NCBI GenBank assembly: GCA_019912315.1 | Contig: JAIOJA010000016.1 | Coordinates: 124,001-188,000 of the forward strand | DNA from: Planctomycetota bacterium | Lineage (GTDB): Bacteria > Planctomycetota > UBA8742 > UBA2392 | DNA length: 64,000 bases | Reading direction: 5' to 3' | Shown here: one piece after another, positions 3,301 through 57,550 of the stretch | How positions within the stretch are numbered: position 1 is the first letter of the stretch | Layout: each line of letters opens with the position of its first letter | Translations under genes and position numbers: made by a program | The notes under the pieces: model-generated | Told to the model about the DNA's origin: nothing | What the model saw: only the letters and a program-made list of their open reading frames with translations | The model's database searches: none

Positions 3301-3598
3301 TCCGCCCGAAGGGGCGATTGAAGTTGTTGACGTGACTGTCGCGAACCGCAAGCCGGCCTACGACGTGGACGAGCTGGTTTCGACCCGGCTGCCCGAGCGC
3401 CTGCAGCGAATTGTCAACGCCCTGCGCCACGGCGTGTTCCTGCACACGCCATTCGCCCGCCTGACAGACGCCTGCAAATACTGCGACTACGCGGCCGCCT
3501 GCGCCCGGCGCGAAGACGTGATTTCCGAGCGCCAGACGCGCATGGCTGAAGCCGAAACTCCCGAAGTGCCGCACGTATACCTGCCGGAGGCAAAATGA
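371..3598 (+). CDS. AddB-like / PD-(D/E)XK exonuclease subunit with probable Fe-S nuclease domain
   Basis: 1075 aa ORF; C-terminal LSPSQIDSYAECPMRFWGRYILG, GTLLHEVFERWV, EIIDYKTGRAK, QLPTYLAAI and CKYCDYAAAC match RecB/AddB-type nuclease with Cys ligands; overlaps next helicase gene by ATGA. Confidence 0.85.
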   Translation: MGIELLRVPLEADVSGFVAALLRDAARASAPFAPAPVIYMGANERRARAISRAAGEQYPEGTPDRVARELLRLTAPTLVLRGEVERDFDFFGALAATLDELGEKRRPGRALVDELLIAWKRLAQAVPPNQRGDLGWLSQLGRRGELLGGVVRRYLERLKQTGQYDPEDAPWLAATHCDARPKLVVADDLDRITPAREAFLRALADRAERTLIILRGNREALPFLADAHEVSQQLMFATEGSVVSEREWPVRPLGHACRVWLGDEPLTAPIALLRPPTRGAEVREAARLIKRAYAEGIAPGDICVAMPSPGAYRELIEETFTASGIPYDAPFELPLDETAPVAALLDLLRTARNGLERNELLDALASPFLPFEASDEDARLRIHGSLDAVTRDVYVVGGRDVRRDWLDKLEAAAHPERDVILEPARHILQLLAPFTKRQARAVSFFEALETLLGACGAPRVAKADSRAGAANASLHAGALHAFTGLLHEMREEFRRIGNPDMPVGELSRALLEQARARSVRPPEGDAPRVRVLGLRELRGMSIRHLVVLGLTDRDLPLAAQETLFLPAAHEEALAGVLGARVARELCAPIDVAAQGDYLFAHMLLCAGDALTLMLPAAESDTPFVPATPFARLLRCMAQNKLEGIPASAHGELPTSPGDLAARAGALLTKAERDGSKREQALALSPALRVGLHGRCMELARTDMASPPHQYEGIVGRHAELAAKFASDAAEPYLFSPSQIDSYAECPMRFWGRYILGVKAPEDPTLDTKPSAVGTLLHEVFERWVLLLRQEAGQPDVLADATARGALKLSDAGGRDVGLRLIAQAFEYACQKNPSEGPFWEGVKQLVAAGLPGRPDDGLGEGLLVRFVDHELARNAEGWGIRFVEFDFGKGNEPRPDRPDTVAAAIDLETPEGRLRLMGSVDRVDEGPDGLEIIDYKTGRAKTTGDVRDGKAFQLPTYLAAISQLAGTPPRGMKYFRVPPEGAIEVVDVTVANRKPAYDVDELVSTRLPERLQRIVNALRHGVFLHTPFARLTDACKYCDYAAACARREDVISERQTRMAEAETPEVPHVYLPEAK

Positions 3599-6500
3599 AG
3601 CCGCCCCTGGCTACCGAAGGACTGAACGACGGGCAGCGCGCGGCGCTTAACCTGACGCGCGACATGCTGGTCAGCGCCGGCGCCGGCGCCGGCAAAACGC
3701 AGGTGCTGGGGCTGCGCTATCTCGCTATCGTTGAAGAAGGGCTGGCGAATGTGCCGGACATTGTGGCCTTCACCTTCACGGACAAGGCCGCCGCCGAAAT
3801 GCGCGAGCGCGTGCAGGGCCTGCTGCTGGCCCGCATCGAAGAGGCGCGGGGCGACAAGCCTCGCCTTGCGCGTCTGAAGCAGGCCCAGTCCGAGTTCGCC
3901 CGCAACCGCATCAGCACGGTGCACGGTTTCTGTCATCGCCTGCTGCGGGATTACTCCTGGGAGGCCGGGCTTGAGCCCCGCGCGCCGATACTGGACGAGC
4001 GCGCGCAATCACTGGCGAGAGAGCGCGCGATCCGCCGCGTGCTGCTGCAATCCAATGCCGCCGAACAGCCGGCGCTGTCAGCTGCTCTCGTGCGCCTTGG
4101 CACGGTGACGCGCCTGTTTACGCTGACGGAATCACTGACCCGCATGTTGCGCGAGCGCGCGTTCGCGAAACCGCCGCTGCACCGCGCAGCCGAGCTGTGG
4201 GCCAACCCCGACGCCGAAGTCGCCCGCCGCCGCGAGTTGTACGAGGCAATGCTGCACGAGCATCTGGCCGCGACGTACGCCGCTGTCAGCAGCATCGACC
4301 GCGGCAGCGCGGGGGGTGCCCGGGCCGGCGACAAGCTGCGGGAGCTGGTGGAATCGCTGCAGGCTGCGTCCACCGCAGGGGACGCGCGGGCGCTGCGCGA
4401 GCTGCTTCTGAAGAAGGACGGCGACCCGCGCGCTCCGGGCGGTGCAAAGGGGAACTGGAAGCACGACCTCGACGCGCTTGATCGCGTGCGCGCGCAGGTA
4501 CTTGCAGCGGCTGCCGCGCTGGCGCCGGCCGCCGAAGTGCTGGACTTTCCATTCGACGAGGCCTTTGAGCGCCGTGTAGGGCGCGTCGCCGGCGACCTTG
4601 CCATCGTGTTCGACGCGGTCTGCGAGGCCTATGAAGAGGAATGCGCGGGCGGACTGGATTTTCTGGACCTGGAGCTCAAGGCCCTGGACTTGCTGCGCGG
4701 AGACGAGGGCGTTCGCCGGGATACGATTCGGGCCGCGAAGTATCTGCTGGTGGACGAGTACCAGGACACCAACCCGACGCAGGGCGAATTGTTTTCACTG
4801 ATCACCGATGACAGCGACAACCCCGGGCGCTTCTTCGCCGTCGGCGACGCCAAGCAGTCAATTTACGCCTTTCGTGGCAGCGACGTGCGCGTGTTCAACC
4901 GCGCGCTGGACTGGATTCCGAGGCGCAACACAAAGTCGGGCGTGGCCGCGAAACCGCTGTCGCCCGCGTGGGGGTTGACCTGTCAAGATACACCGGAGCG
5001 CCGCGCGGGGATTATCAGACTCGAGCACAACTACCGCACCGTCAGCCCTGTGCTGGATCTCGGCAACCGGATCTTCCGGAACATCTTCCACCGCGCCGAC
5101 TATCGGGATTTCGACGCACGCCCCCAGGACATGATCGCCGGAAAACAGTCGCCGGGTGCAACCGGCCATTCACCCGTCGAGTTCCATGTTCTGCCAGACG
5201 TAAACGCCTACGAAGAGGCCGAGTACGTCGCCCGGCAGGCGCGGCGATTGCGTGACAAGCAGGTGCCCCTCTCGAACATCACGATTCTGGTGCGCCGGAG
5301 CACGCGCAACGCGTTGTACCGGAACGCCTTCGCGCGACATGATCTGCCGCTGCTCGTCGTGGGTGAGGGCGGGCTGTTCCACACCCAGGAGGCCCTGGAC
5401 TGCGTGAACCTGCTGCGCGCCCTCGCGAACCCGGGCGACAACGTCGCCGTGCTTGGCGTGCTGCGTTCGCCTTTGGCCGGGCTGTCAGACGTCTTCCTTA
5501 CCGAACTTGCCCTGGGCAGCAACCGCAACGAACCTTTGCTCAAGCGCCTTGAGGACTGGGCGGCCAGACCGGCGCACGCGGACACATTCCTGCAACGCTT
5601 TCAACAACTGCGCCGGCGTGCCGGACGGGACGCGCCTTCGTTACTGCTGGGCGACGCCCTGTCCGGATTCGGCTATCTGCTTGCGGTCGGCAGCAGCCCC
5701 GACGCCGAGCAACGCATGGCCAACGTCGCGCGAATGCTTGAACTGGTGCGAGCCATGCAGCATGAGCTGCCCTCACTCGCGCCGCTGGTGCGTGAGTTGC
5801 GCGACCGCATCGACCGCGAAGAGGATGAAACCCAGGGCGTGCCCGACAGCACCGTTGAGGGCGTGCGCCTGATGACGATTCACAAAGCCAAGGGCCTGGA
5901 GTTTCCGATCGTGATTCTGCCGGACCTTGGCGCCAGCATCTCCGGCGGTGGGCGCGGCCTGGTGCGCGAGTTGCCTGAGGAGCCGGGCGAGCCCCTGGGC
6001 TTCTACCTGCGCAGTCTCGACGACGACGACCGGGGCGATTTCCGAAGCGACTTCGTGGCCTGGCGCGCGAAGCTCGCGGCCAGGGAACGCGGGCTCACCG
6101 AGGAAAAGCGCGCCCTGTATGTGGCCTGGACTCGCGCCGCCGAGCGCATCCTGCTGGTCGGCAGCCTGAAGCCGGGCAAGCCCTTCGACAAAGACGTCTG
6201 GGGGCATCAACTGCTGCGCGCCATGGGCATCCGCGACTGGAACGCCGACTGCGAACACGAGTGCGTGCAGATGGTCTGGCCGGACGAAGTGGAGCCGAGC
6301 GAAGCCGCGCCACACACGATGCACATCGACTCCGCCCGCGCCGCGTTGTCCGCGGGATCATTGCCGCTGCCCGCGTCGATTGACGATTCACTTGTAGCGC
6401 CCCTGCCGGGTCCCGCCGGCCGCGCGACAGCCGCCGATCCGGAGGCGGTCGAGTTCGGCACGCTTGTGCATGCCGCCATGGAAGATCACCTGCGCGGGCT

Positions 6501-6882
6501 GGAAATCGGGCTTGCCAACGCGCGCGTTGCCGGCCATGTAAGCCGCGCCAGGGAGGCGCTTGCGACTCTTGGCCGGGCGAAGCACACGCATCCCGAGTTC
6601 GGCATCATGACGCCAGATGGCCCGCGCCGCCTGGACCTGCTGCGCGAGCTGGACGGCGACGCGTTCGAAATCATCGACTACAAAACCGACGCCGTAACAA
6701 CCGACCTCGCGCAACACGCGGAACTCGCGCACGGCGATCAACTGCGCGCCTACGCAAGCGCGTTGACCGGCTACCTCGCGCTGCGCGATCGCAAGCCTGC
6801 CCGTATTCGGCTTCTTGTGTGTTTCACCGCGCCGGATGACTTGCGCCCCGGCGAGCGACTGGTTGAAATCACGCCCAAATGA
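3595..6882 (+). CDS. UvrD/AddA-like ATP-dependent helicase-nuclease
   Basis: VSAGAGAGKTQVL Walker A, VDEYQDTNPTQ, GDAKQSIYAFRGSD, MTIHKAKGLEFPIV, YVAWTRA, C-terminal GTLVHAAMEDHL...FEIIDYKTDAV nuclease motif. Confidence 0.9.
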   Translation: MKPPLATEGLNDGQRAALNLTRDMLVSAGAGAGKTQVLGLRYLAIVEEGLANVPDIVAFTFTDKAAAEMRERVQGLLLARIEEARGDKPRLARLKQAQSEFARNRISTVHGFCHRLLRDYSWEAGLEPRAPILDERAQSLARERAIRRVLLQSNAAEQPALSAALVRLGTVTRLFTLTESLTRMLRERAFAKPPLHRAAELWANPDAEVARRRELYEAMLHEHLAATYAAVSSIDRGSAGGARAGDKLRELVESLQAASTAGDARALRELLLKKDGDPRAPGGAKGNWKHDLDALDRVRAQVLAAAAALAPAAEVLDFPFDEAFERRVGRVAGDLAIVFDAVCEAYEEECAGGLDFLDLELKALDLLRGDEGVRRDTIRAAKYLLVDEYQDTNPTQGELFSLITDDSDNPGRFFAVGDAKQSIYAFRGSDVRVFNRALDWIPRRNTKSGVAAKPLSPAWGLTCQDTPERRAGIIRLEHNYRTVSPVLDLGNRIFRNIFHRADYRDFDARPQDMIAGKQSPGATGHSPVEFHVLPDVNAYEEAEYVARQARRLRDKQVPLSNITILVRRSTRNALYRNAFARHDLPLLVVGEGGLFHTQEALDCVNLLRALANPGDNVAVLGVLRSPLAGLSDVFLTELALGSNRNEPLLKRLEDWAARPAHADTFLQRFQQLRRRAGRDAPSLLLGDALSGFGYLLAVGSSPDAEQRMANVARMLELVRAMQHELPSLAPLVRELRDRIDREEDETQGVPDSTVEGVRLMTIHKAKGLEFPIVILPDLGASISGGGRGLVRELPEEPGEPLGFYLRSLDDDDRGDFRSDFVAWRAKLAARERGLTEEKRALYVAWTRAAERILLVGSLKPGKPFDKDVWGHQLLRAMGIRDWNADCEHECVQMVWPDEVEPSEAAPHTMHIDSARAALSAGSLPLPASIDDSLVAPLPGPAGRATAADPEAVEFGTLVHAAMEDHLRGLEIGLANARVAGHVSRAREALATLGRAKHTHPEFGIMTPDGPRRLDLLRELDGDAFEIIDYKTDAVTTDLAQHAELAHGDQLRAYASALTGYLALRDRKPARIRLLVCFTAPDDLRPGERLVEITPK

Positions 6883-33680: not shown

Positions 33681-36600
33681 ATGGCCCGCCCCTGCAACCG
33701 AAAGCCGTTGACACTCGTGACCGAGCGCCGCTTTCAACTGTACACGCTGCTGCGAGCCTTCGAGAACGAAACCGTTCTCGGCGAGGCGCTGCACTTTCCC
33801 GAAGTTTCGCGCCTGGGGGCTAGCCCTGCCAAAGTCACCCGCGCCGTCGCCGCCAATGCCCGCGCCATTGCGGAGCGGCAGCCCCCGATCGAGCTGTTCC
33901 ATCGCACCGCGCCCTCTGAGCCCCACACCCGCGAATTCACCGTCAACCTGGACGCGCCACGCGGCGCGCCCCTGTGGAAGGGACAACTCCCGATTTGCTT
34001 CCGCGCCGCCGTCTGGGAGGTGCCGGGCGCCGGCTGGTCGTGCCGTGTCCCCGCGCTGGGGATCGAGCTGTTCACGGAAAGGCACGAAGATCTGGAGCCG
34101 CGCGCAAGTCAGGAAATCCTGCTGGCTCTGCACCGTGAGAACGCCTCCGCGGACCTGTGGATGCTGTCCCGCGTGCGCCGCGAGACCGGCCTTGTCATTC
34201 AGCCCGGCCGCCTCAGCGCGGATATCCGCACGCCGCGCGAGGAAGGCATGCAGGATTCCCGCAAGCCGGCGGAAGCGTCCGTGCTGGCGCAAGTCGCGCA
34301 GGACCTGACGGCCCAGCCCCCGCCCCGCGCCTTCGGATATGCGGAGCTCACCCGCCGTCTGGCAGAGGCCCTTTCCGAGCCCCGCCCCGAAAGCGTGCTG
34401 CTGGTCGGGCCCGGCGGCGTCGGCAAGACCGCCCTGTTTCTTGAGCTTGTGCGCCGGCGCGACGAGTTGAACTTCGCCAGCACGCCGTTCTGGGGCACCA
34501 GCGGCTCAAGGCTGGTGGCGGGCATGTCGGGCTTCGGCATGTGGCAGCAGCGCTGCGACAAACTGCGCCTCGAGGCCGCGCGCACCCGCGCGATTCTGCA
34601 CCTGGGCAACCTCGTTGAGCTGATGGAAGTGGGCAAGGGCATGATGATCCAGCAGGGCATCGCCGGGTTTCTGCGCCCGTTCATCGCGCGCGGAGAGCTG
34701 TTGTGCGTCGTCGAGTGCACGCCCGAGCAACTGCCGCTGATCGAGCGGCAGGACCCGCACCTGATGGGCGTGTTCCATGCGCTTCGAGTCCCGGAGCCCG
34801 AGCCCGAAGCCGCCCGCGTGATTCTGCGATCAGCGGCGGACGAGCTGTCCGAGGCGGCGGGACAGGAATGGATCACCCCGGGCGCGCTGGCGACACTGGA
34901 TCGCCTGCACAGGCGCTACGCCACGTACTCGGCCTATCCGGGTCGCCCGCTGCGGTTCCTGCGCAACCTGCCGGAAGCGGTGACCGACACCGGCGTCTAC
35001 GCGGCGTTCTCGCGCGAGACCGGCCTGCCGACCCTGATGCTTGACCCGTCCGTGCCGATGGTCGGGCCCGAGGTCCGCGCGTTCTTCACCGAACGTGTGA
35101 TCGGCCAGCCCGCCGCCGTGGAGCGCGTCAGCGACCTGCTGGCCACCATCAAGTCCGGGCTGGCGCGCCCGCGCAAGCCTCTGGCGAGCTTCCTGTTCGT
35201 CGGGCCCACGGGAGTAGGCAAGACGGAAACCGCCAAGGCCCTGGCGGAGTTTCTGTTCCATGACCGACGGCGCATCACGCGCTTTGACATGAGCGAACAC
35301 GCCGACCCGGCGGGGGTGCAGCGCCTGATTGGCGGGGCGTTCGGCGAAGACGGGCTGTTGACCGCGCGCGTGCGTGAGCAGCCCTTCGCCGTGCTGCTGT
35401 TCGACGAGTTCGAGAAGGCCCATCCGCTGTTCTTTGACCTGCTGTTGCAGATCCTCGGCGAAGCGCGCCTGACCGACGCGGGCGGGCGACTTGCCGATTT
35501 CAGCAACACCGTGATCATCATGACCAGCAACCTCGGGGCCGAAGGCTACATGCAGGGCGGCATCGGCTTTGGCGACAGGGACCCGGACGCCGAGCAGCAC
35601 TTTGGCAAGGCGCTGCGGGATTTCGCCCGCCCGGAGCTGCTGAACCGCATTGACCGAGTGGTGCCGTTTCTGCCGCTGAACGAACACTCCGTGCTGCAGA
35701 TCGTGAACCGGGAGATCGAACTGGTGGAGCGGCGCCCCGGCCTGCGCGACACGGGCACCCGCCTCGAAGTCACCGAGGCAGCCCGCAAGCGCATTGCCGA
35801 AAGGGCATATCAGCCGGCATTGGGCGCCCGCCCCCTGAAGCGCGAGATCGAGCGCGAGCTGCTGGTGCCGCTGGCGGAAGCGCTGAACACGCTGCCGACC
35901 GTGTACGCGCTGCACGCGGTCGCGGATGTCGTCGGCGGGGAACTGCGCGTTGAGGTCAACCCCCTGGCGGGCGAGGACGCGCGCCCCAGGGCGCGTGCGG
36001 GCGCCGACGCCTGGCTGTCGAAACTGGGTGAGGAAGCCACGAACCTGCGGCGCAAACTGCAGGTCGCCCTGGCGTCGGAGGCGCTGCTGCGCCTGCGCAG
36101 CGAGGGCTATCGCCTTGGGCGCTCGCTCGATATGGAACGCCGCAAGCGCCGCAAGCACCCCGACCGTGCGCCTTCATCACGCGCCGCCGAAGCCGGGCAC
36201 CGGCTGACCCTGACTCGCAGCGTGCTGCGCGCGTTCGAGTCGGCAAATGAGCGCGTCTGCGAGCTTGAGGATCGCCTCAGGCTCGGGGCGCTGGTGCGCT
36301 CGCGCCTGACCGAGCCGCCCGCCCGGCAGGAACTGGAGGACCGCCGCGGCGACTGGGCCGACGCCCTGCGCGACCTGATGCGCGTGAACGGCGGAGGCGG
36401 CGGCACCAACGACGCCACGCTTTACATTTACTCGCATCACAGCGAGCTGATGTTCCAGCTGGCCAGGGGCTACCGCGAATGGGCGCGCAAGCACGCGAAG
36501 TCCACCACCCTGTGCTGGGCAACCCGCGAGCTCGCGCCGGACGACCGCAGAGAGCTGCAGCGCCGGGCCGAGTTTGACTCCGCCTGCGTGGCGGCCCTGC

Positions 36601-37046
36601 GCCGCCTGCGAGATCTCGATGCGCGCGCCCCGGAATCCGCGACGGACGATCCGGAGCTGTTCCCGCCCATGGACGCCGGGCACTTTCTGGACGCCCCGCG
36701 CGAGGAACCGGGCGCGGTGGTCATGCGCGTTGAGGGCGCGGACATCGCGCTGATGCTGCGCCTTGAGGCGGGCAACCACCGGTTTCGTGTCAGCGGCGAT
36801 GCGGACCCCGTGGACGTGGACGTGCAGGTGCTTGCCGGCGACCTCTGGAACCTGGACCTGCCCGTACCGCGCGGAATGGCCGGTGGGCTGCCCCCGCGCC
36901 GCCACTACGACCTCGCGCAGCACCAGGCGAAGGACGAGCTGCTGGGGCAGGTCGTGGCCTGGACCGCAAACCACCTGGAGGGCGTGCTGACACGCTGCAT
37001 CGGCGCCGGATTCGAGCGGCATCTGGAAGGGCAGGTGGGGCTGTGA
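33681..37046 (+). CDS. ClpA/B-like double-AAA+ ATPase paralog 1 with release-factor/PCRF-like C-terminus
   Basis: D1 GPGGVGKT; D2 GPTGVGKTETAKALAE, LLFDEFEKAHP, IIMTSNLG, ARPELLNRID, GARPLKREIE; start 33681 (ATG) or 33717 (GTG). Confidence 0.88.
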   Translation: MARPCNRKPLTLVTERRFQLYTLLRAFENETVLGEALHFPEVSRLGASPAKVTRAVAANARAIAERQPPIELFHRTAPSEPHTREFTVNLDAPRGAPLWKGQLPICFRAAVWEVPGAGWSCRVPALGIELFTERHEDLEPRASQEILLALHRENASADLWMLSRVRRETGLVIQPGRLSADIRTPREEGMQDSRKPAEASVLAQVAQDLTAQPPPRAFGYAELTRRLAEALSEPRPESVLLVGPGGVGKTALFLELVRRRDELNFASTPFWGTSGSRLVAGMSGFGMWQQRCDKLRLEAARTRAILHLGNLVELMEVGKGMMIQQGIAGFLRPFIARGELLCVVECTPEQLPLIERQDPHLMGVFHALRVPEPEPEAARVILRSAADELSEAAGQEWITPGALATLDRLHRRYATYSAYPGRPLRFLRNLPEAVTDTGVYAAFSRETGLPTLMLDPSVPMVGPEVRAFFTERVIGQPAAVERVSDLLATIKSGLARPRKPLASFLFVGPTGVGKTETAKALAEFLFHDRRRITRFDMSEHADPAGVQRLIGGAFGEDGLLTARVREQPFAVLLFDEFEKAHPLFFDLLLQILGEARLTDAGGRLADFSNTVIIMTSNLGAEGYMQGGIGFGDRDPDAEQHFGKALRDFARPELLNRIDRVVPFLPLNEHSVLQIVNREIELVERRPGLRDTGTRLEVTEAARKRIAERAYQPALGARPLKREIERELLVPLAEALNTLPTVYALHAVADVVGGELRVEVNPLAGEDARPRARAGADAWLSKLGEEATNLRRKLQVALASEALLRLRSEGYRLGRSLDMERRKRRKHPDRAPSSRAAEAGHRLTLTRSVLRAFESANERVCELEDRLRLGALVRSRLTEPPARQELEDRRGDWADALRDLMRVNGGGGGTNDATLYIYSHHSELMFQLARGYREWARKHAKSTTLCWATRELAPDDRRELQRRAEFDSACVAALRRLRDLDARAPESATDDPELFPPMDAGHFLDAPREEPGAVVMRVEGADIALMLRLEAGNHRFRVSGDADPVDVDVQVLAGDLWNLDLPVPRGMAGGLPPRRHYDLAQHQAKDELLGQVVAWTANHLEGVLTRCIGAGFERHLEGQVGL

Positions 37047-40000
37047 AGCTGACCATCCCCCTGTACCAGGAGAAGTTCCGGCACGAAGGCGCCGACCAGT
37101 ACTTCGTTCGTCCCCTGTTTGTGGAAGGGGTGGAGGCCGTTCGCGACGAGCTGAAGCGCGCGACCGATTCCGTCCGCAACAGCCTTCGCGCGATGCTGCT
37201 GGCGCAATCCCGGCAGCCCCGTCACGATTTGCTGGGGCTGACGACGCAGTGCCCCGACATGCGCGAAGAGCACGTGAAGCTGCGCATCCGGCTGAAGCGC
37301 CGCAGCATCGAAGCGACGTATCTGTTCGCGGTCTTTGAGCAGGCGGGAAGCCGCGTGGCGTTCACGCCGCGCCTGCCCCACCTGATGTTCGAGCTTGCCC
37401 GCGGCGAAGAACTTGCCGCCCGCGCCGAGGAAGTGCTGACGGCGCATTACCGCAAGCTGGAAAAAGAGCTCGACACCGTGGAGCCGGCGCAGGACGCCGT
37501 GCGCGGCAGCGCCTGGATCAGCCAGCTTGATCTGAGCATCGAGTTTGAGGCGCTTCATGTGCAGCCGCGCGGACAGGACCGCGCGGAGATCGGCGGGTTT
37601 GCGCAGATGGATGGCGCCGATGAACTGCACAAGGTCGGGCGCCTGGTGGACGCCCTGTACCCGGACGACCTGGATCGCGCCGTGCGCCGCGAGGCGCTGG
37701 TAAGTGAGCTCTCGGCACTGTTGAGCGACGCCGACAGGCGGCCGGTGCTGCTGCTGGGACGATCCGGCGTCGGCAAGACGGCGCTGGTGCATGAAGTTGT
37801 GCGGCGGGGCCTTGAGGCGAAAGCCAGCGGCGGCAGGCGGCGCGGACAGGTGTGGCTGATTTCGCCGCAGCGGCTGATTTCGGGGATGAGCTTCGTCGGG
37901 CAATGGGAAAACCGCGTCCACGCCATCCTGGGCGAATGTCGCCGGCGCGACCACGTGCTGTACTTCGACGACATTCTGGGGCTGTTTCGCGCCGGCATCT
38001 CGGCAAGCAGCCGCGTCAGCGCCGCGCAGGTGCTGAAGCCGCACATCGAAAAGCACGAAACCCGCCTGCTGGTGGAAATGTCGCCGGAGCAGTTGCAGGT
38101 ACTTAAAGAGCTCGACCGCGGGTTCGCGGACATGTTCCACGTCGTGCCGGTCGATGAGCCCGACGAGCAGGAAACCCTGCGCATCCTGATTCACAGCCAG
38201 CGCGAACTGGAAGCACGCTTTCACTGCCGGTTCGGGCACGACGTGCTGCCGACGGCACTGGACCTGACGCGGCGCTACCAGCGGGAGATCGCCATGCCGG
38301 GCAAGGTGGCGGGCTTCCTGGCGCAGCTTGCGAACAAGCATCGTGACGCCGGCATCACGCGCCTGCATGTGCTGTACGAGTTCGAGGCCCGCAGCGGGCT
38401 GCGCGTCAGCTTCCTCGATGAAAACGCACGCATGTTCCGCGAGCAGGTTGATCGCGACCTTCGAGCCACCATCGTCGGGCAGGATGCCGCTGTCCGGGCC
38501 ATGGTTGACGTCGTCACGGTCGCGAAGTCGCGCCTGAACGACCCCGGGCGCCCGCTGGGCTCGCTGCTGTTTCTCGGGCCGACCGGCGTGGGAAAAACCG
38601 AAAGCGCCAAGGCCCTGGCCGGGCTTCTGTTCGGCGACCCCGCGGCACTGCTGCGCTTCGACATGAACGAGTTTGTTGACGCGTCAAGTGTGGCGCGCCT
38701 GGCAGGCACCATGAGCGAGCCCGAAGGCCTGCTGACCGGCGCCGTGCGGCGCCGCCCCTTTGCCGTCATTCTGCTGGACGAAATCGAGAAGGCGCACCCG
38801 GGCGCGTTCGACGTGCTGCTTCAGGTGCTGGGCGAGGCACGCCTGACCGATGCCCTCGGACGCACCACCGACTTCAGCAACTGCGTGATCATCATGACCA
38901 GCAACCTCGGCGTGCGCGAAGCCGACGGCGGCCTCGGCGTCGCGGGGCACGAATCGCGCGGGGATGACGCGTACTCGCAGGCCGCGCGCCGGTTTTTTCG
39001 CCCGGAGTTCTTCAACCGCATCGACCGCATCGTGCCGTTCCAGCGCCTGACGCGCGACGAAGTGGAAACCATCGCGCAGCACCAGCTTCAGGAGGTGTTC
39101 GCGCGCGAGGGGCTGTCGCGGCGGCGCTGCGTGCTGCAGGTGGACGCGCCGGCCATGGAGCGCGTGGTGGACAAGGGCTATCACCCGCGCCTTGGCGCCC
39201 GCGCCATCAAGCGCGAAATCGAACGCCAACTCACGCGCCCCCTGTCGGCCCGTCTGGCGGAACTCAACCCGGAGGTGCCGACGATTGTTCGCCTGATGGC
39301 GCGCGGCGATGATGTCACGGTCGGGCTGACACCCCTGGAAGCCGAGTCGCCCTCACCCCGCGCGGGCGTGCGCGTGCCGCTGGACAACGTGGACGCCGTG
39401 GTTTCGCGCATGGACAACGTGCTGAACCAGGCCGAAAGTCTGCTGGCCGGCCTGGCGCCCGAGGGCGCGATTCCCGGCAGCTCCGTAACCCCCGCCTTGC
39501 GCCGCTACTTCGCCCTGCGCGAGCAGGTGGGCTATCTCGACAACGCCGTCGAGCGATTCCTGGACTGGCGCGAAGCCCAGGCCGACCGCCCCGCCCCACC
39601 CGAAGCCGGCGCCAGCACAATCAGCGAGAATCGGCCGCGACGCAGCCCCCTGGCGGAGGCGCTTCCCGCCCCGCCCGACGCGTGGCTTGCATTGCGCACT
39701 CCCAACGAGTTGCGAGGGTTTCTGAGCGCTCGCGCTGAAGACACGGGCGAAAGTCAGCTTACCGGTCGCCTGCGCCGCCTGCTCGCCGCCACGGCGCTGC
39801 TGAACCTCATGCTTGAGCGCCCGGCGCGCGAGGACGAGCGCGTACTGCTGGTTCTGCGCACGGTGAACGGACGCCACTCCCCGGCCCCCGGCTGGCTGGC
39901 CGGATCCTTCAGCGCGCTGTTGCGCCATCGGGTTGACCTCGGGGTCGACCGCCTTGAAAGCAGCCGGCCCGGCGAAGTGGCGCTGGTCGTGTCGGGCTAT

Positions 40001-40348
40001 CTGGGTGAGGCACTGTGCGGCGCTATGGCCGGGCTGTACCTGTGGTGCTGGGAAGGCGGCTTTCAGCCCGTGCAGGTGATCGCCAGGACCATCGAGCCCG
40101 GCGACGACCCGGGCGCCCGCCTTGCGGACTTGAACACACGGCAGCGCGAATGGGCCGAGGGTGTGGCCCGCGGCGACGCGTCACCGGACGACGACCCCCT
40201 TCCGTGCGGACGCGTCATCCAGGTTCACTACAACTCGGCACAGGCCCTTGACCTGCGCTGCGGACAGGTGTCCCGGGAACACCCATCCCTGAGCCTGCTG
40301 TGGACATGGCTGATGCTCTCCTTCGACGTTCCGGAGGGCGAAGCATGA
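37043..40348 (+). CDS. ClpA/B-like double-AAA+ ATPase paralog 2 with long C-terminal extension
   Basis: GTG start overlapping preceding stop (GTGA); D1 GRSGVGKT; D2 GPTGVGKTESAKALAG, ILLDEIEKAHP, IIMTSNLG, FRPEFFNRID, GARAIKREIE. Confidence 0.88.
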   Translation: MKLTIPLYQEKFRHEGADQYFVRPLFVEGVEAVRDELKRATDSVRNSLRAMLLAQSRQPRHDLLGLTTQCPDMREEHVKLRIRLKRRSIEATYLFAVFEQAGSRVAFTPRLPHLMFELARGEELAARAEEVLTAHYRKLEKELDTVEPAQDAVRGSAWISQLDLSIEFEALHVQPRGQDRAEIGGFAQMDGADELHKVGRLVDALYPDDLDRAVRREALVSELSALLSDADRRPVLLLGRSGVGKTALVHEVVRRGLEAKASGGRRRGQVWLISPQRLISGMSFVGQWENRVHAILGECRRRDHVLYFDDILGLFRAGISASSRVSAAQVLKPHIEKHETRLLVEMSPEQLQVLKELDRGFADMFHVVPVDEPDEQETLRILIHSQRELEARFHCRFGHDVLPTALDLTRRYQREIAMPGKVAGFLAQLANKHRDAGITRLHVLYEFEARSGLRVSFLDENARMFREQVDRDLRATIVGQDAAVRAMVDVVTVAKSRLNDPGRPLGSLLFLGPTGVGKTESAKALAGLLFGDPAALLRFDMNEFVDASSVARLAGTMSEPEGLLTGAVRRRPFAVILLDEIEKAHPGAFDVLLQVLGEARLTDALGRTTDFSNCVIIMTSNLGVREADGGLGVAGHESRGDDAYSQAARRFFRPEFFNRIDRIVPFQRLTRDEVETIAQHQLQEVFAREGLSRRRCVLQVDAPAMERVVDKGYHPRLGARAIKREIERQLTRPLSARLAELNPEVPTIVRLMARGDDVTVGLTPLEAESPSPRAGVRVPLDNVDAVVSRMDNVLNQAESLLAGLAPEGAIPGSSVTPALRRYFALREQVGYLDNAVERFLDWREAQADRPAPPEAGASTISENRPRRSPLAEALPAPPDAWLALRTPNELRGFLSARAEDTGESQLTGRLRRLLAATALLNLMLERPAREDERVLLVLRTVNGRHSPAPGWLAGSFSALLRHRVDLGVDRLESSRPGEVALVVSGYLGEALCGAMAGLYLWCWEGGFQPVQVIARTIEPGDDPGARLADLNTRQREWAEGVARGDASPDDDPLPCGRVIQVHYNSAQALDLRCGQVSREHPSLSLLWTWLMLSFDVPEGEA

Positions 40349-42573
40349 GCGTAACTCGCGTACCGGTATTGATCTGGCGCGACCACGCGGGCCTGTTCAC
40401 GGGCGCGCTCGTGGAACAGCCGGAGGCGGCCGCGGTCGGCACGTCGCCGCGGGAGGTGCTGTCGCAACTGAAACAGTACCTGACCTGGCTTCAGCGCAAC
40501 CAGCCCTGGATGCTGCCCGAGGGCGAAATGGAAAAACCGGCCCTGACGCGAGTGCAGGTCGAGGTACGCCCCGAGTACGTGGTCGGGCGGCGCCACCCGT
40601 CAAGCCCGCTCAAGCTGACCGTTCCGTGCGTTCACGGCGAGATGTCATCTGCCCTGCGCGTTTGTTCCATCCCGCCCATGGGGCTTTGGTTCTCGTTTCA
40701 TGAAGCCGCAGAACTTCTGGAACTCGCGGCGCACTACGTGCGCGACGCCGTCCGGGGCGCGTCGCCGGCCCGCGTAGCGCGCTATCTGAACGCGGCGGAA
40801 TACACCCTCGACGAGCTGGTGGTCACGACGCCGCGCGAGCGCAAGCCCCGCACAGAGCGCACGTATGAGGCACTGGAAGGCATCGCCGAGCCGCTGGGCG
40901 AGCGCGCCGTGCGCCGACAGTTTTCGCGCGCATGGGAGCGCGACAGGGAAGTCGCCGAGTTGATCGAGCGCGTGAAGCGTGACCGCGCCAACGTACTGCT
41001 GGTGGGCGCGCCGGGCGTCGGCAAGACGTCCGTTCTCGTCAGTGCGGCCCGCGAAGTGGAACGGCAGATCGCGGGCGACGAGGAACGCCGGCGGTTCTGG
41101 CTGACAAACGGCTCGCGCCTGATCGCCGGCACGCCATACCTGGGCCAGTGGGAAGAGCGCCTCGAAAACGTGATCGTCGAATTGCAGGGCTTTCACGGCG
41201 TGCTGTGCGTCGAGAACCTGCTTGAGCTTGTGCGCCTCGGCGGGCACGACGCCGCCGACAGCGTAGGCGCCTTCGTCGCGCCGTACATGAGCCACCGCGA
41301 GCTGCAGGTCATCGCCGAAGCCACGCCCGAGGAACTGGATGCCTGCCGCCGCCTGCTTCCCGGGCTGGTGGACGCGTTTCAGGTCATGCACGTCAAGCCC
41401 TTCGACGCGACGGGCGCCACGCGTGTGCTTGACCGCATCGCCCAGGCCGGCGCGCGCGACCTTCGCGTCGAGACCGGCAACGACCTCGTGCACGGCGTGT
41501 ATCGCCTGTTCCGCCGCTTCCGCCCCTACGACGCGTTTCCGGGCAAGGCCGCCGGCTTCCTGACCGAGTTGATCCAGCGCGCCGCGGCAACGGAGACTGC
41601 CCTTGACACGTCCACGGCCACCGCGCGATTCGTCGAGCAGACGGGGCTTCCACAGCACCTCGTGCGCGACGACGTGCCCCTGGGCGAAAGCGAGGTGCTT
41701 GCCTACCTGTCCTCGCGCGTCATCGGTCAGCACGCCGCCTGCCGCACCGCCGCCGGAGTGGTCACCACGTTCAAGGCCGGGCTGAACGACCCCGCCCGCC
41801 CGGTGGGCGTGCTGCTTTTCAGCGGCCCGACCGGCGTCGGCAAAACCGAGCTTGCCCGGGCCCTGGCGGACTACCTGTTCGGGCACGGACAAAGCGGAGA
41901 CCGTCTGGTGCGCCTGGACATGAGCGAGTACGCGGGCTACGGCGCCAGCGAACGCCTGGTATCGGACGCCAGGGGTGATGCTGCCGAATTCGTGAAACGC
42001 GTGCGCGCCCAGCCCTTTTGCGTGGTGCTGCTGGATGAGATTGAGAAGGCCTCGCCGGACGTGTTCGACATGCTGCTTGGCGTGTTCGACGAGGGGCGCC
42101 TTACGGACCGCTTCGGGCGGGTGACGACGTTCCAGAGCAGCGTCATTGTCATGACCAGCAACCTCGGCGCCGGGCGTAACGGCGGGATGGGCTTCGGCGC
42201 CCAGCCCGGTGCGGACTACGACGCCGAAGTCATGCGCTTCTTCCGCCCGGAGTTCTACAACCGCCTCGACGGCGTCGTGGCATTCGAGCCCCTGAGCGAA
42301 GAAATCATTCACAGGATCGCCGCCAGAGAACTGGGCGAGCTGGCAAAGCGCGAAGGCCTGGCAAGGTCCGGCATCACACTGGCCTGGGACGACAGCGTCG
42401 TCGCCCTTGTTGCCCAGGCCGGCTTTGACCGTCGCTACGGGGCGCGCCCGTTGCAGCGGGCCATCGAGGAGCGCGTGGTAACGCCGATTGCGCGGCATCT
42501 GGCGGCAAACCCGGACCTGCGCGATATCACGTTGCACTTGCACGTGGACGACGCGGGCAAGATTGCGTTTTGA
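40345..42573 (+). CDS. ClpA/B-like double-AAA+ ATPase paralog 3 (no C-terminal extension)
   Basis: ATGA overlap with preceding gene; D1 GAPGVGKT; D2 GPTGVGKTELARALAD, VLLDEIEKASP, IVMTSNLG, FRPEFYNRLD, GARPLQRAIE. Confidence 0.88.
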   Translation: MSVTRVPVLIWRDHAGLFTGALVEQPEAAAVGTSPREVLSQLKQYLTWLQRNQPWMLPEGEMEKPALTRVQVEVRPEYVVGRRHPSSPLKLTVPCVHGEMSSALRVCSIPPMGLWFSFHEAAELLELAAHYVRDAVRGASPARVARYLNAAEYTLDELVVTTPRERKPRTERTYEALEGIAEPLGERAVRRQFSRAWERDREVAELIERVKRDRANVLLVGAPGVGKTSVLVSAAREVERQIAGDEERRRFWLTNGSRLIAGTPYLGQWEERLENVIVELQGFHGVLCVENLLELVRLGGHDAADSVGAFVAPYMSHRELQVIAEATPEELDACRRLLPGLVDAFQVMHVKPFDATGATRVLDRIAQAGARDLRVETGNDLVHGVYRLFRRFRPYDAFPGKAAGFLTELIQRAAATETALDTSTATARFVEQTGLPQHLVRDDVPLGESEVLAYLSSRVIGQHAACRTAAGVVTTFKAGLNDPARPVGVLLFSGPTGVGKTELARALADYLFGHGQSGDRLVRLDMSEYAGYGASERLVSDARGDAAEFVKRVRAQPFCVVLLDEIEKASPDVFDMLLGVFDEGRLTDRFGRVTTFQSSVIVMTSNLGAGRNGGMGFGAQPGADYDAEVMRFFRPEFYNRLDGVVAFEPLSEEIIHRIAARELGELAKREGLARSGITLAWDDSVVALVAQAGFDRRYGARPLQRAIEERVVTPIARHLAANPDLRDITLHLHVDDAGKIAF

Positions 42574-47645: not shown

Positions 47646-49496
<1,851 letters not shown>

Positions 49497-49539
49497 CGCG
49501 GCTCCGCTTTCCAAGGCCGCCCGCAGACAGTCGAACGTG

Positions 49540-52055: not shown

Positions 52056-52143
52056 TGGTAGATAGTCGCGGGCATTGTACTGTTATTCCCCCGCTTTTGG
52101 GACTCTGTGCCCGCGGGGCTCTCTCAGCAAGGCAGTAAATCCA

Positions 52144-55100
52144 ATGCGCGTTCGAATCAAACATGTCACCCGCTACCTCTATGGAGCGGAAGTTGTTCTC
52201 GGCCCGCAGCTGGTGCGCCTGCGTCCGGCGGAACACGCCCGGGCGAAGTTGCTGTCGTACAATCTCGACATCTCGCCAGAGTGCGAAGTTCGATGGCAGT
52301 ACGACCCGTGGGGCAACCAGATTGCGCGCCTCACCTTCGGCAAGGGCGTCAAACCACACGAGTTCTGCGTTACCGTCGATGCATCGTTCGACATTCGCCC
52401 GGTCAATCCGTTCAACTTCTTCATTGATGACCGCTGCACCGAAGTACCGTTCGACTACCCCGACGGGATGCAGGCCGAGCTGACACCATTCCTGAAACAT
52501 GCCAAGCCGTCTGCGCGACTGGCCGCCTTCGTCAATCAAGTTCCGTTTGAAGGCAAGCCGACGGATTACCTCGTCGCGCTGAACACGCACGTTGCAAAAT
52601 CAATTCGCTACATCATCCGCAATGAGCCGGGAATCCAGACCAGCGAAGAGACGCTGGAGAAGGCCTCCGGTTCATGCCGCGACAGCGCGATTCTGCTGGT
52701 GGACTGCCTGCGTACTCACGGCATCGCGGCGCGATTCTGCAGCGGCTATCTCGTGCAGCTTGCCGACGAAGGCAACATTCCGGACATCGCCAAGGGCGTG
52801 TCCAGCGACGTGCTGGACCTGCACGCCTGGGCCGAGGCGTACATCCCGGGCGGTGGCTGGGTCGGGCTGGATGGAACTTCCGGGCTGCTCTGTGGTGAAG
52901 GGCACATCCCGCTTGCCAGTACCGTGAACCCCGAACTGGCAGCGCCGATTGCCGGTACATCAAGTATCGCCGCGAAAAACTTTGAGTTTGAAATGAGCGT
53001 CACGCGGCTGGGTCACGAGCCAAGCCCGCGCAAGCCATACACCGACGAGCAGTGGGAAGCACTTTGCGCTGCAGGCGAACGCGCCGACAAGGCAATCATC
53101 GACCAGGGCCTTCGCCTCACGATGGGCGGCGAGCCGACGTGGACATCACGTGAGCACCCGGGGTTGCCGGAATGGAACACCGAGGCGCTGGGTGACAGTA
53201 AGTGGCGGCAGGGCCTGCGGCTGGCACGCCAGCTCCAGACGCGCCTCGGTGACCAGCCACTGGTCATGCAGCACATGGGCAAGCTGTACCCGGGCGAAAG
53301 TCTGCCGCGCTGGGTACTCCGCCTGTTGTGGCGGGCCGATGGCTTACCCTGCTGGCAGGCTTCAGAGTTGCTTGACCTTTCGGACCGCCAACCCGGCTCC
53401 GAACCCGTACTGTGCACCGAGCCGGAGATCGCACAGGCGCGCAAGTTTGCGCAGCATCTGGCCAATGAGCTCGGCGTTAAGAGCGACCTGATCGCTGGCT
53501 TCGAAGACCCTTGGGTCTTTCTGGCGCGCGAAGAAAATCTACCCACCGACGTGGACCCACTCACGGCCGACCTCAGCGATTCCGAAGAGCGCAGGCAACT
53601 CGCGCGCGCACTCTCAAGGGGCCTTAATAAGGAAGTCGGCTACGCCATTCCGCTGCGCCGCGAAGAGGGCGGCTGGAAAACAAGCAAGTGGAGCTTCCGC
53701 CGCAAGCACTGCTTCCTGATACCCGGCGACAGCCCGATGGGCCTGCGCCTGCCGCTTGACCGTATCCACGGTGTCGCGCCCGAGGATCACCTTCGCGACC
53801 GAACCATGCCGCAGCCGGGTTTGCCCGACTTCGGCCAGCAAAGAGTTCAGCGCGCGACCGACGTCGTCAGTCCCGGCGCTCAACCGTCAGACGACTCAGG
53901 TGAAGTCATCCGAACCTGCCTGTGTGTTGAACCTCGTGACGGTGCACTGAACATCTTCATGCCGCCGGTTACGTCAGGCGATGACTTCCTGGAATTACTG
54001 AGCGCCGTCGAAGCGACGGCCGTCAGCATGAGCCAGAAGATCCGCGTGGAAGGCTACCCGCCGCCGCGCGATCCCCGGATTCAGGAGTGCCTGGTTACGC
54101 CCGACCCGGGTGTCATTGAGGTAAACCTGCCGGTCACCGAAAAGCTGGCTGACTACACGCACTTGCTGGAAGTCATCAACGACGCGGCCAATCACGCCGG
54201 GCTGAGTACTGAAAAGTACCAGTTGGACGGGCGAGAAGTCGGAAGCGGCGGCGGCAATCACTTGACCCTCGGGGGCCCGACTGCGGTCGAGAGCCCGTTC
54301 CTGAAGCGTCCTGACCTGATTGCGAGCCTGCTGCGATTTGCGCAGAACCACCCCAGTCTCAGTTACTTGTTCACGGGGCTGTTCGTCGGGCCAACGTCAC
54401 AGGCACCGCGCCTTGATGAAGCGCGGATGGATACGCTGTACGAACTCGAGATCGCACTCAACCGGCTGACGGAAAAGTCCGGGCATGGTGCGCCGTGGTT
54501 CACAGACCGCCTGCTGCGCAACCTGTTGACGGACCTTTCGGGCAACACGCACCGCACGGAATTCTGCATCGACAAACTGTACAGTCCGGATGGACCGGCT
54601 GGCCGTCAGGGGCTGCTTGAATTCCGCGCGTTTGAAATGCCGCCCCATGAGCGCATGGCGACGGCGCAGATGCTGCTGGTGCGCTCGCTGGCCGCAAGGT
54701 TCATGAAGCAGCCGTATACCGAGCCGCTGGTTCGCTGGGGCAGCCGCCTGCATGACCAGTTCATGCTGCCGCATTACCTGTGGTCAGACTTCAAAGACAT
54801 CGCGCACGACCTGGCGCTGCATGACCTGCCCATTGACCTTGAGTGGTATCGCCCGTTCCTTGACTACCGCTGCCCGCGCGCGGGTGAGCACCAGATTGAA
54901 GACCTCGGCATCGAAGTCCGCATCGCGCTTGAGCCGTGGATCGTGCTGGGCGAGCAGGCCACCACGGGCACTGTTTCCCGCTACGTTGATTCCAGCGTTG
55001 AGCGTCTTCAGGTCAAGCTCACCGGGCTGACTGAAGGTCGACACGTGGTCACCGCGAACGGCTGGCAGGTTCCGTTGCGCGCGACGGGCGTGGCCGGAGA

Positions 55101-55452
55101 GAGCGTCGCCGGGATCCGATTCCGCGCGTGGCAGCCGCCGCATTGCCTTCAGCCTCACATCGGCGTTCATCATCCGCTGCGCATTGACATCATTGATACC
55201 TGGGGCAAGCGTGCGCTCGGTGCGGCGACGTACCATGTAGTTCACCCCGAAGGCCGAGGCGTTGACGAGCCGCCCCTGACCGCATTCGAGGCCGCGGCCC
55301 GCCGTGCGGAGCGGTTCACCGTGCTGGGGCACTCACCCTGGCCGGCCGAGATCAAACCGACCGTCCCGCATGGGGATCAGCCGGTGTCATTCGATTTGCG
55401 CCGCTACGACCTCGGACGCACGATTCAGGATGACCAGCCCAAGTCCTCGTGA
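52144..55452 (+). CDS. Transglutaminase-like domain fused to DUF2126 (COG4196)
   Basis: [83 protein letters not shown]2126 [38 protein letters not shown]. Confidence 0.92.
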
Positions 55453-55456
55453 CGGC

Positions 55457-57550
55457 ATGCCTACGGAACTCGACAAAGCCATCGCCAATCACGACGCGCG
55501 GCTGATTGCCGCCGGGCTCGATATCTGGATCGGAGGCGAGCCAACGTTCACCGATCGTGAATCGTTCGAGCCTGCCTGGAATCACGCTGCACTCGGCGCG
55601 AACAAAGAAGCCCGCGCGCGACAAATGCTGGCCCTGCGGGCAAAGCGGCACCCCGGTGCACTGATCGTCAGGACCATTGGTCGCCAATACCCCGGCGAAG
55701 ACAGCCCGCGCTGGAGCTACGGTCTCTACCGTGACCGCAGCGGCCAGCCCCTGTGGAATGGGCCGCGTGACCCGCTGTCTTTACCGGCGCCTGTCGTCGA
55801 GTGCGCTTCGGATGCGCATCTGCGGGCAAGGGATGCGCTTGTGGGCCAGCTTGCTCGTGGCGGATATGCGGTGTGCACTTTCATGGGCACGGACCAGACT
55901 GCGCGACTGGTCTTCGCTGCGGGCAGAGACAAACCAATACCCGAGCAGGATTCCCGATTGCACCGCGCATCGCTTCACGGGCGCAAGCTCAGCGAAGGTG
56001 GCGCAATCGACGATCTGGCCACTGACGGATTCTACCTCTGCGCCTTCTCCGTGAATGAAAGCTGCCTTCGCCTTGAGATGCCCTCGTTCCCTGACGTAGC
56101 GACGTTTCGGGCATTCATTGGAATCGTCGAAACAGCTCTCTCTGACCTGCCCGCGCTTGTGCTGGCAGGGTTCGCGCCACCGGTTGATGCAGGTGTCACC
56201 TTCGACACTTACACACCCGACCCAGCGGTCGTGGAAGTGAATATGGCGCCAGCGCCAAGCCTGCGGTCGTTCACAGACTGCAACGCGGAACTGTATCAGG
56301 ATGCACACGGCGCACAGCTCAGCAGCCAGCGCCTGCTGTACAACGGTGTCGTGGCGGATTCAGGCGGAGGCGGCCACATCACGCTGGGCGGACGCACACC
56401 CGCCGACAGCCCGTTCCTTCAATACCCGCATCTGTTGCCAGGGTTGATCTGCTACTTCAACGCGCACCCCAGCTTGAGCTATCTCTTCGCCGTGGACGCC
56501 GTCGGCTCATCCAGCCAGTCGCCACGCGGCGATGAAGGTGTTCGCGAGAGCTTCGAAGAATTGCAGGTGGCGCTACAGGCCGTAGAGGCCATGAACAAGC
56601 CTTCTCCGGAAGTTCTCTGGCATTCACTCGCGCCCTTCATGGCCGACCGCACAGGCAACACGCACCGAAGTGAGATCAACGTCGAAAAGCTGTGGAACCC
56701 GTGGCTGCCCGGGCGTGGGCGTCTCGGCGTGGTCGAATTCCGGGCGTTTCGAATGGCACGCACGCCTGCAGAAGCGGCGGCGCTGGGCGCACTGTTGCGC
56801 TCAATTGTTGCGATGCTGGCACAACCGCAGGCCCAGCGCGGCTGGCGACTGAAGGATTGGGGCAGCGAGTTGCACGATCGCTTTGCACTGCCGTTCTTTC
56901 TGCTTGAAGATTTGCGCACAGTGCTGGCTGACCTCGCAGCGTCTTCCTTTGAACTGGCCGAGGCGTTGCAACAGCTTCTGCTGGACCACAGCCATCGAGA
57001 AATCGGGATCCACGCGTGCGGACCGGTCAAGCTCATTGTTCGGCGCGCGATTGAGTTCTGGCCGCTGGTCGGGGATGCGGCCTCGCAAGAAAGCCACGGC
57101 GCGCGCCTGATTGACGGCAGCACGCAGCGGATCGAGCTTGTGTTGCGACATGGCACGGGCGACGCAAGCGACCTCGATGGCTGGGAACTCCAGTACGGAA
57201 ATTTCAGCACCAGTCTCCCGGTTTCTGACGACGCTCAGGGCTCGGCCGCGATACTGGGAGTCCGATACCGGGCGTTCCTTCCTAGGATCGGGCTTCACCC
57301 GACCATCCGGGTGCAATCGCCGTTGCGATTCGTACTCGTCAACCGAACGCGCCGGCAGGCATTTGCCATCGTCCTTCATGAGTGGCAGCCTGAAGCCCTG
57401 CCCTATGACGGCCTACCTGCTGATGAACATGCCGCGAGCGCGCGGCGCCGCGAACGGCTGGCAGTCTCGACTCTCGCGGAAATCCCGAACACAGCGTCGC
57501 CTCCGACTGGCGCGCGCTCGCCCTGGTGCCTGGACGTCAGGCGCTGCTGA
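55457..57550 (+). CDS. Stand-alone DUF2126 paralog
   Basis: [70 protein letters not shown]; start 55457 (alternative 55430). Confidence 0.82.
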   Translation: MPTELDKAIANHDARLIAAGLDIWIGGEPTFTDRESFEPAWNHAALGANKEARARQMLALRAKRHPGALIVRTIGRQYPGEDSPRWSYGLYRDRSGQPLWNGPRDPLSLPAPVVECASDAHLRARDALVGQLARGGYAVCTFMGTDQTARLVFAAGRDKPIPEQDSRLHRASLHGRKLSEGGAIDDLATDGFYLCAFSVNESCLRLEMPSFPDVATFRAFIGIVETALSDLPALVLAGFAPPVDAGVTFDTYTPDPAVVEVNMAPAPSLRSFTDCNAELYQDAHGAQLSSQRLLYNGVVADSGGGGHITLGGRTPADSPFLQYPHLLPGLICYFNAHPSLSYLFAVDAVGSSSQSPRGDEGVRESFEELQVALQAVEAMNKPSPEVLWHSLAPFMADRTGNTHRSEINVEKLWNPWLPGRGRLGVVEFRAFRMARTPAEAAALGALLRSIVAMLAQPQAQRGWRLKDWGSELHDRFALPFFLLEDLRTVLADLAASSFELAEALQQLLLDHSHREIGIHACGPVKLIVRRAIEFWPLVGDAASQESHGARLIDGSTQRIELVLRHGTGDASDLDGWELQYGNFSTSLPVSDDAQGSAAILGVRYRAFLPRIGLHPTIRVQSPLRFVLVNRTRRQAFAIVLHEWQPEALPYDGLPADEHAASARRRERLAVSTLAEIPNTASPPTGARSPWCLDVRRC

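Follow-up and report, generated by a model that had tools for sequence, protein, structure and literature searches.

Three consecutive genes, here called A, B and C, encode double-AAA+ paralogs in a 64,000-nucleotide stretch of planctomycetal DNA (the window, positions 124001-188000 of a 239-kb contig from a 4.0 Mb draft genome with Planctomycetota metagenome-assembled genomes as close kin). With a probability slightly below 0.6, their products make up a Clp/Hsp100-type AAA+ machine as its three obligate subunits, and its targets are ribosomes, translating or stalled, or factors at the ribosomal A site. The genes lie on the same (+) strand and are chained by 4-bp overlaps, and the reading frames and junctions described in the initial annotation agree with the sequence in coordinates and letters. 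They are listed below, with D1 and D2 denoting the first and second AAA+ modules and RF a release factor.

33681-37046, + strand: gene A, 1121 amino acids; N-domain, pseudo-D1, D2 and RF2-like module without the GGQ domain
37043-40348, + strand: gene B, 1101 amino acids; N-domain, pseudo-D1, D2 and RF2-like module
40345-42573, + strand: gene C, 742 amino acids; N-domain, pseudo-D1 and D2, without C-terminal extension
37043-37046, + strand: A/B start-stop overlap GTGA, read from the sequence; 27 of 50 linked orthologous A/B pairs overlap by 4 bp
40345-40348, + strand: B/C start-stop overlap ATGA, read from the sequence; 10 of 42 linked B/C pairs overlap by 4 bp

The start of A is probably the GTG at 33717 rather than the ATG at 33681, since residue 13 of the reading from 33681 aligns with a near-invariant Met, present in more than 90% of orthologs.

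Release-factor modules of A and B

The last 350-380 residues of A and of B form RF2-type modules from which the catalytic GGQ domain, about 80 residues, is missing.

35898-37043, + strand: RF-like module of A; domains 1 and 2/4, without GGQ domain 3
39275-40345, + strand: RF-like module of B; more diverged, RF2 at E 3.3e-4, 96.1% to the A module

The homology of both C-termini to release factors is close to certain. A hidden Markov model of the A C-terminus, searched against all PDB sequences, gives RF1 or RF2 in 24 of its 28 matches (best E 4.7e-4), and an independent PDB sequence search with the B profile places RF2 at ranks 1-3 (best E 3.3e-4). The two regions are homologous to each other, at 96.1% in an hhalign profile comparison. 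The AlphaFold model of the A C-terminus (382 residues) has a predicted local distance difference test score (pLDDT) of 92.4 and a predicted template modelling score (pTM) of 0.85; its 36 best Foldseek matches in the PDB are all chains of RF1, RF2 or PrfH, with a top E of 8.6e-9. The structure model is that of the A module, and the B module is assigned by its homology to A and by its own profile matches. A Pfam search of the C-termini of the window's A and B alone gave no match, and the link to release factors emerged only with profiles built from many orthologs. Comparison of the A and B C-termini by hhalign with a crude RF alignment, which has an effective number of sequences (Neff) of 2.8 and includes some wrong reading frames, was not significant. 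The module is not present in C, and true RF1 and RF2 are encoded elsewhere in the same genome.

In A the E.G.H and R.Y motifs are 40 residues apart, against 122 in true release factors, and from this spacing the inserted GGQ domain appears to have been cleanly excised. No conserved GGQ is found in A or B; six sequences of A and five of B do contain scattered GGQ strings, which lie at unrelated positions. In alignments read by eye, neither A nor B nor the single-gene relatives described next have the PxT/SPF stop-codon reading motif where it would align.

In a tree of the AAA+ core these relatives are the sister group of A/B/C. Their RF2-like module is of full length, and they make the release-factor origin plain, because Pfam PCRF is found in all eight that were scanned (above cut-off in seven, up to E 3.8e-18), their C-termini give a 97.9% profile match to an RF1/RF2 alignment (Neff 2.8, some wrong reading frames) and one of them matches RF2 end to end in a single-sequence phmmer search (E 1.2e-22). 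Their GGQ region is present with a degenerate motif and no GGQ, and a PF00472 match is not listed; the RF2-type helical domain 1 and a C-terminal KDxRTG-like element are kept. HEAT repeats precede the AAA+ modules in 5 of the 8. In a tree of RF modules the single-gene relatives form one clade on the RF2 side, with long branches, and they are probably the older form of the A/B/C family. Examples are L071 (7501-11031), L072, L075, L085, L087 and others. A further locus, L084, on a 7.2-kb contig, has two adjoining family members that branch close to the base of A/B/C, both cut by the contig ends; it is possibly an intermediate form.

The A module and, by homology, the B module share the fold of domains 1 and 2/4 with RF2 (prfB), from which the family differs in the removal of the GGQ domain (A and B) or the loss of its motif (single-gene form), in an SPF loop that is not conserved and in the fusion to AAA+ modules. 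PrfH, of the PrfH-RtcB systems, and other specialised bacterial release factors are likewise diverged RF paralogs for non-standard ribosomes; PrfH keeps GGQ and has no domain 1, whereas the A and B modules keep domain 1, have no GGQ and are attached to an ATPase (PMC6514570 for PrfH and its kind). A survey of release factors gives the bacterial forms as RF1/2, ArfB and PrfH and nowhere mentions Clp (PMC6514570). No Clp-release factor fusion and no obligate three-paralog Clp machine was found in the family libraries or in the literature searched, the latter covering few subscription papers and no preprints.

The AAA+ core and its place beside the Clp families

As the initial annotation stated, each protein has two P-loop modules, lacks Clp_N repeats and a ClpB M-domain (a Pfam search of A, B and C matches neither) and shares a non-Clp N-terminal region with the other two. 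Pfam AAA_2 matches D2 (E 3e-34 to 2e-43), with a ClpB_D2-small match after it, and D1 is recognised weakly. The motif counts cover 171 sequences, 55 of A, 70 of B and 46 of C.

33681-34295, + strand: N-domain of A, residues 1-205; hhalign 94.8% to B and 96.4% to C
34314-35000, + strand: D1 of A; Walker A Lys in 55/55, Walker B with G(N/S/P) in place of DE, no Arg finger
35043-35885, + strand: D2 of A; Walker A/B, Arg finger and sensor 2 retained, with the GYVG pore loop deleted
37043-37642, + strand: N-domain of B, residues 1-200, by profile comparison
37676-38332, + strand: D1 of B; Walker A Lys in 70/70, Walker B DD, with Glu replaced by Asp in 69/70
38417-39262, + strand: D2 of B; catalytic residues intact, without GYVG pore loop
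40345-40899, + strand: N-domain of C; two beta-beta-beta-alpha repeats
40918-41598, + strand: D1 of C; Walker A Lys in 46/46, Walker B with EN/DS in place of DE
41677-42510, + strand: D2 of C; catalytic residues intact, without GYVG pore loop

The catalytic Glu of the D1 Walker B is absent in 171/171 proteins and the D1 Arg finger is gone, while the D1 pore-loop aromatic is mostly retained; in the single-gene form the D1 Walker B reads P(D/N). D2 has the Walker A Lys, the Walker B Asp-Glu and the Arg finger in 171/171 and sensor 2 in all but one. The GYVG pore loop, the threading element of classic Clp motors, is found in none of the 135 D2 loops scored and is present in ClpB, ClpC and ClpV of the same genome. 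Judged from these motifs, D1 probably binds ATP without hydrolysing it, D2 is probably the motor and the grip on the substrate would have moved to D1. The degenerate D1, the missing D2 pore loop and the RF-like C-termini of A and B do not figure in the initial annotation.

The N-domains match one another at 87-96% probability in profile comparisons. That of C was modelled with a pLDDT of 87 as two beta-beta-beta-alpha units. All three may be HicB-like, the best-supported resemblance but one that is weak in sequence (profile matches at E 0.09-1.1) and in structure (Foldseek probability 0.98 over about 50 residues, E 0.24).

In the broad sense the proteins are Hsp100-like, with an AAA_2-type D2 and then ClpB_D2-small. 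They share with ClpB, ClpA, ClpC and TssH the order of the two AAA+ modules and, in D2, the Walker A/B motifs, the Arg finger and the GAR sensor 2. They differ from all four in having no Clp_N, M-domain, D1 catalytic Glu, D1 Arg finger or D2 GYVG loop, in the three obligate paralogs and in the RF-like C-termini of A and B. The NCBIfam Clp and TssH models score A, B and C at 193-338 bits against cut-offs of 885-1900 (ClpB 337.6 against 1232, ClpA 336 against 993 and TssH 243 against 885 at best), so the trio does not fall inside a characterised Clp/TssH family, an outcome that the initial annotation had named as a refutation. Score, motifs and tree all rule out membership of TssH/ClpV, for which the genome has a separate TssH-like gene, and the A/B/C and single-gene group is a separate clade far from ClpB, ClpC and ClpV of its own genome (branch 0.89, support 100/100). 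The architecture corresponds to none of the NCBIfam, PADLOC or Pfam entries. ClpP, DnaK and type VI secretion genes had been noted as absent; this is true of the window, but elsewhere the genome has canonical ClpB, ClpC and ClpV/TssH-like genes. The last of these (L006, C83:66774-70628) suggests a type VI-like system elsewhere in the genome.

These features also bear on a reading in which A, B and C form a three-subunit Clp-like chaperone or disaggregase and the RF fold has been re-used as a scaffold for protein binding or oligomerisation, with no contact to the ribosome. The loss of the GGQ domain and codon loop, the high divergence of the RF module in A and B, a homology to ClpB that is strongest in D2 and the intact D2 ATPase site would all suit such a protein. 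The RF fold is nevertheless retained at high predicted confidence, and at full length in the single-gene relatives, including helical domain 1 and the KDxRTG-like element, and a protein with neither M-domain nor GYVG pore loop is not a standard disaggregase. This reading is rather unlikely, yet it is the strongest of the alternatives.

Distribution and co-retention of the three genes

GTDB species genomes were scanned with D1 of B, which gave 157 loci, and the best 80 of these were analysed. Most belong to Planctomycetota, Acidobacteriota or Verrucomicrobiota, and one record each is titled Armatimonadetes, Actinomycetota, Sericytochromatia and Hydrococcus; named hosts include Zavarzinella formosa DSM 19928, Sulfidibacter corallicola M133 (a complete genome), Verrucomicrobium sp. 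BvORR106 and a Prosthecobacter metagenome-assembled genome. Within the window's own family the triplet is found in 14 of 15 genomes, in the order A-B-C where contiguous. An even sample of the phylum has a relative at E 1e-75 in 52 of 392 genomes; strong B orthologs extend there to several further families, and the other matches are mostly the single-gene form. Gene B of genome G001 (L055/L090) is split into two frames that overlap, which probably reflects a frameshift from sequencing or assembly.

In the AAA+ core tree A, B and C are three clades (support 100/97, 100/99 and 99/98), and because each spans families, the triplication is older than the families sampled. A lies directly upstream of B in 49 of the 62 B loci with enough flank, and C directly downstream in 41 of 56. 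Of 16 genomes with B that were searched whole, 15 carry, as read from scores, a single copy of each of A, B and C. Genomes with unlinked genes almost always retain all three: in several of the 15 the genes are far apart or on different contigs, as in G398 and G399, and A is on a separate scaffold in G393. B was found in 4 of 119 genomes of an even acidobacterial sample, each of which also has A and C. In 39 further genomes an A-type match was found in essentially all and the full trio in most, the incomplete trios being draft genomes, several with contigs that end within the operon. This co-retention is stronger evidence of a three-component system than the gene overlaps are, and A, B and C are very probably an obligate three-part set. 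The occurrence of homologs singly, which the initial annotation had named as a refutation, is seen in the weak sense that single-gene relatives exist; these are a separate outgroup clade and not orphan copies of A, B or C.

It could also be proposed that the three are independent homomeric Clp-like unfoldases, co-transcribed by chance. Each does have a complete D2 site and the genes are unlinked in some genomes, but the trio is kept together even there, the gene order is conserved and translational coupling is common, all of which makes this the least probable of the explanations weighed here.

Across the 80 loci, from many phyla, there is no widely conserved neighbour, and no translation gene, effector or defence gene is among such neighbours. 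Serine/threonine kinases and sigma-54 regulators were considered as conserved partners; they occur in a handful of loci and are read as chance neighbours. Kinase genes stand between A and B or just past B in L151 (4315-6171), L152 (6823-8679), L148 (12764-14677) and L101 (15037-16689), possibly by chance, serine/threonine kinases being abundant in these bacteria.

The initial annotation had raised defence among the possible roles, to which none of the results below points. A defence or conflict system would use the AAA+ ring to sense an attack on the ribosome by nucleases or toxins and then shut down or repair translation, with a logic like that of PrfH-RtcB. The patchy spread across phyla, the N-domains with their weak likeness to HicB and PrfH, a release factor already linked to conflict (PMC6514570), would be in keeping with it. 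The set is, however, nearly universal in the window's family, and the triplet is ancient and not recently mobile. PADLOC yields generic, partial AAA matches only, to the DolB and candidate M37B models, with no partner genes of known anti-phage systems, and no effector or defence neighbour is conserved. Relatives on plasmids and phages all match at less than 60% identity, and those listed are annotated, where annotated, as ordinary Clp or AAA+ proteins. The RF module points to translation instead of defence, and the defence role is improbable.

In the window a radical-SAM gene is divergent to A and an LCM-type methyltransferase gene lies downstream of the C locus on the opposite strand; both appear to be outside the A-B-C system, since no neighbour is widely conserved across the 80 loci. 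Elsewhere in the window, adjoining and overlapping genes for a PD-(D/E)XK nuclease-type and a UvrD-type helicase protein (371-6882) resemble an AddB-AddA pair. Two DUF2126 (putative amidoligase) proteins follow in a row at 52075-57550, the first also with a transglutaminase-like domain, and a GATase_4/transglutaminase protein is encoded at 47646-49514 on the strand opposite to this pair.

A proposed ribosome-directed motor

The earlier proposal of one machine made of three different subunits is partly supported: the clades are ancient and separate, the genes are co-transcribed in many lineages and they are kept together when scattered. A mixed ring is likely, and the subunits would form a mixed hexamer in which D1 is a nucleotide-bound structural ring that may also grip the substrate, as its conserved pore-loop aromatic suggests, and D2 provides the power stroke. 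In Hsp100 geometry the C-terminus exits the Clp ring at the D2 face, which would place the dead RF modules on the exit side of the ring. Domains 2/4 of bacterial release factors occupy the decoding centre and domain 1 lies near the base of the stalk. From these positions and the exit at the D2 face, it is proposed that the modules tether the ring at the factor-binding side of the ribosome, where they would dock on the A-site region, or on a complex engaged in termination or rescue, and direct the motor to the A site or stalk. Such targeting of the ribosome by the RF modules is plausible. The motor might then remove or unfold a stuck factor or a damaged ribosomal protein at the A site or stalk, or split stalled ribosomes, in each case without hydrolysis of peptidyl-tRNA.

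Several points weigh against this picture. Translation genes are not among the conserved neighbours of A-B-C loci. With the region of the PxT/SPF codon-reading loop lost, binding at the A site need not persist, and the modules could have another partner. Because D2 has no GYVG threading loop, unfolding of substrates is uncertain, and A, B and C could build separate homo-oligomers instead of a mixed ring.

In its most specific form the proposal is tentative, and the odds are somewhat against it: an undescribed ribosome-remodelling motor, in which a heteromeric A-B-C ring of Hsp100 type is led to the A site by dead release factors and pulls off stuck factors or dismantles stalled ribosomes, would be the independently evolved bacterial equivalent of the quality control that couples a release factor to Cdc48. 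The eukaryotic pair of Vms1/ANKZF1 and Cdc48 resembles it in logic only, in that an RF homolog and a double-AAA+ motor cooperate in the quality control of ribosomes (PMC6514570); the RF fold of Vms1/ANKZF1 is unrelated (aeRF1 type), the two are separate proteins joined via a VIM motif and the AAA+ family is a different one.

No close match was found for A-B-C as a system; its core is a known Hsp100-type ATPase. The genes are present in the cultured isolates Zavarzinella formosa, Sulfidibacter corallicola and Verrucomicrobium sp. BvORR106, so that the proposal is testable now, and the single-gene relatives are probably easier to study. If the RF modules still bind ribosomes, they would directly and physically connect the bacterial ribosome to an Hsp100-type motor, and the system, if the proposal is true, would be a route of rescue or quality control that is not represented by tmRNA, ArfA/ArfB, PrfH or RqcH.

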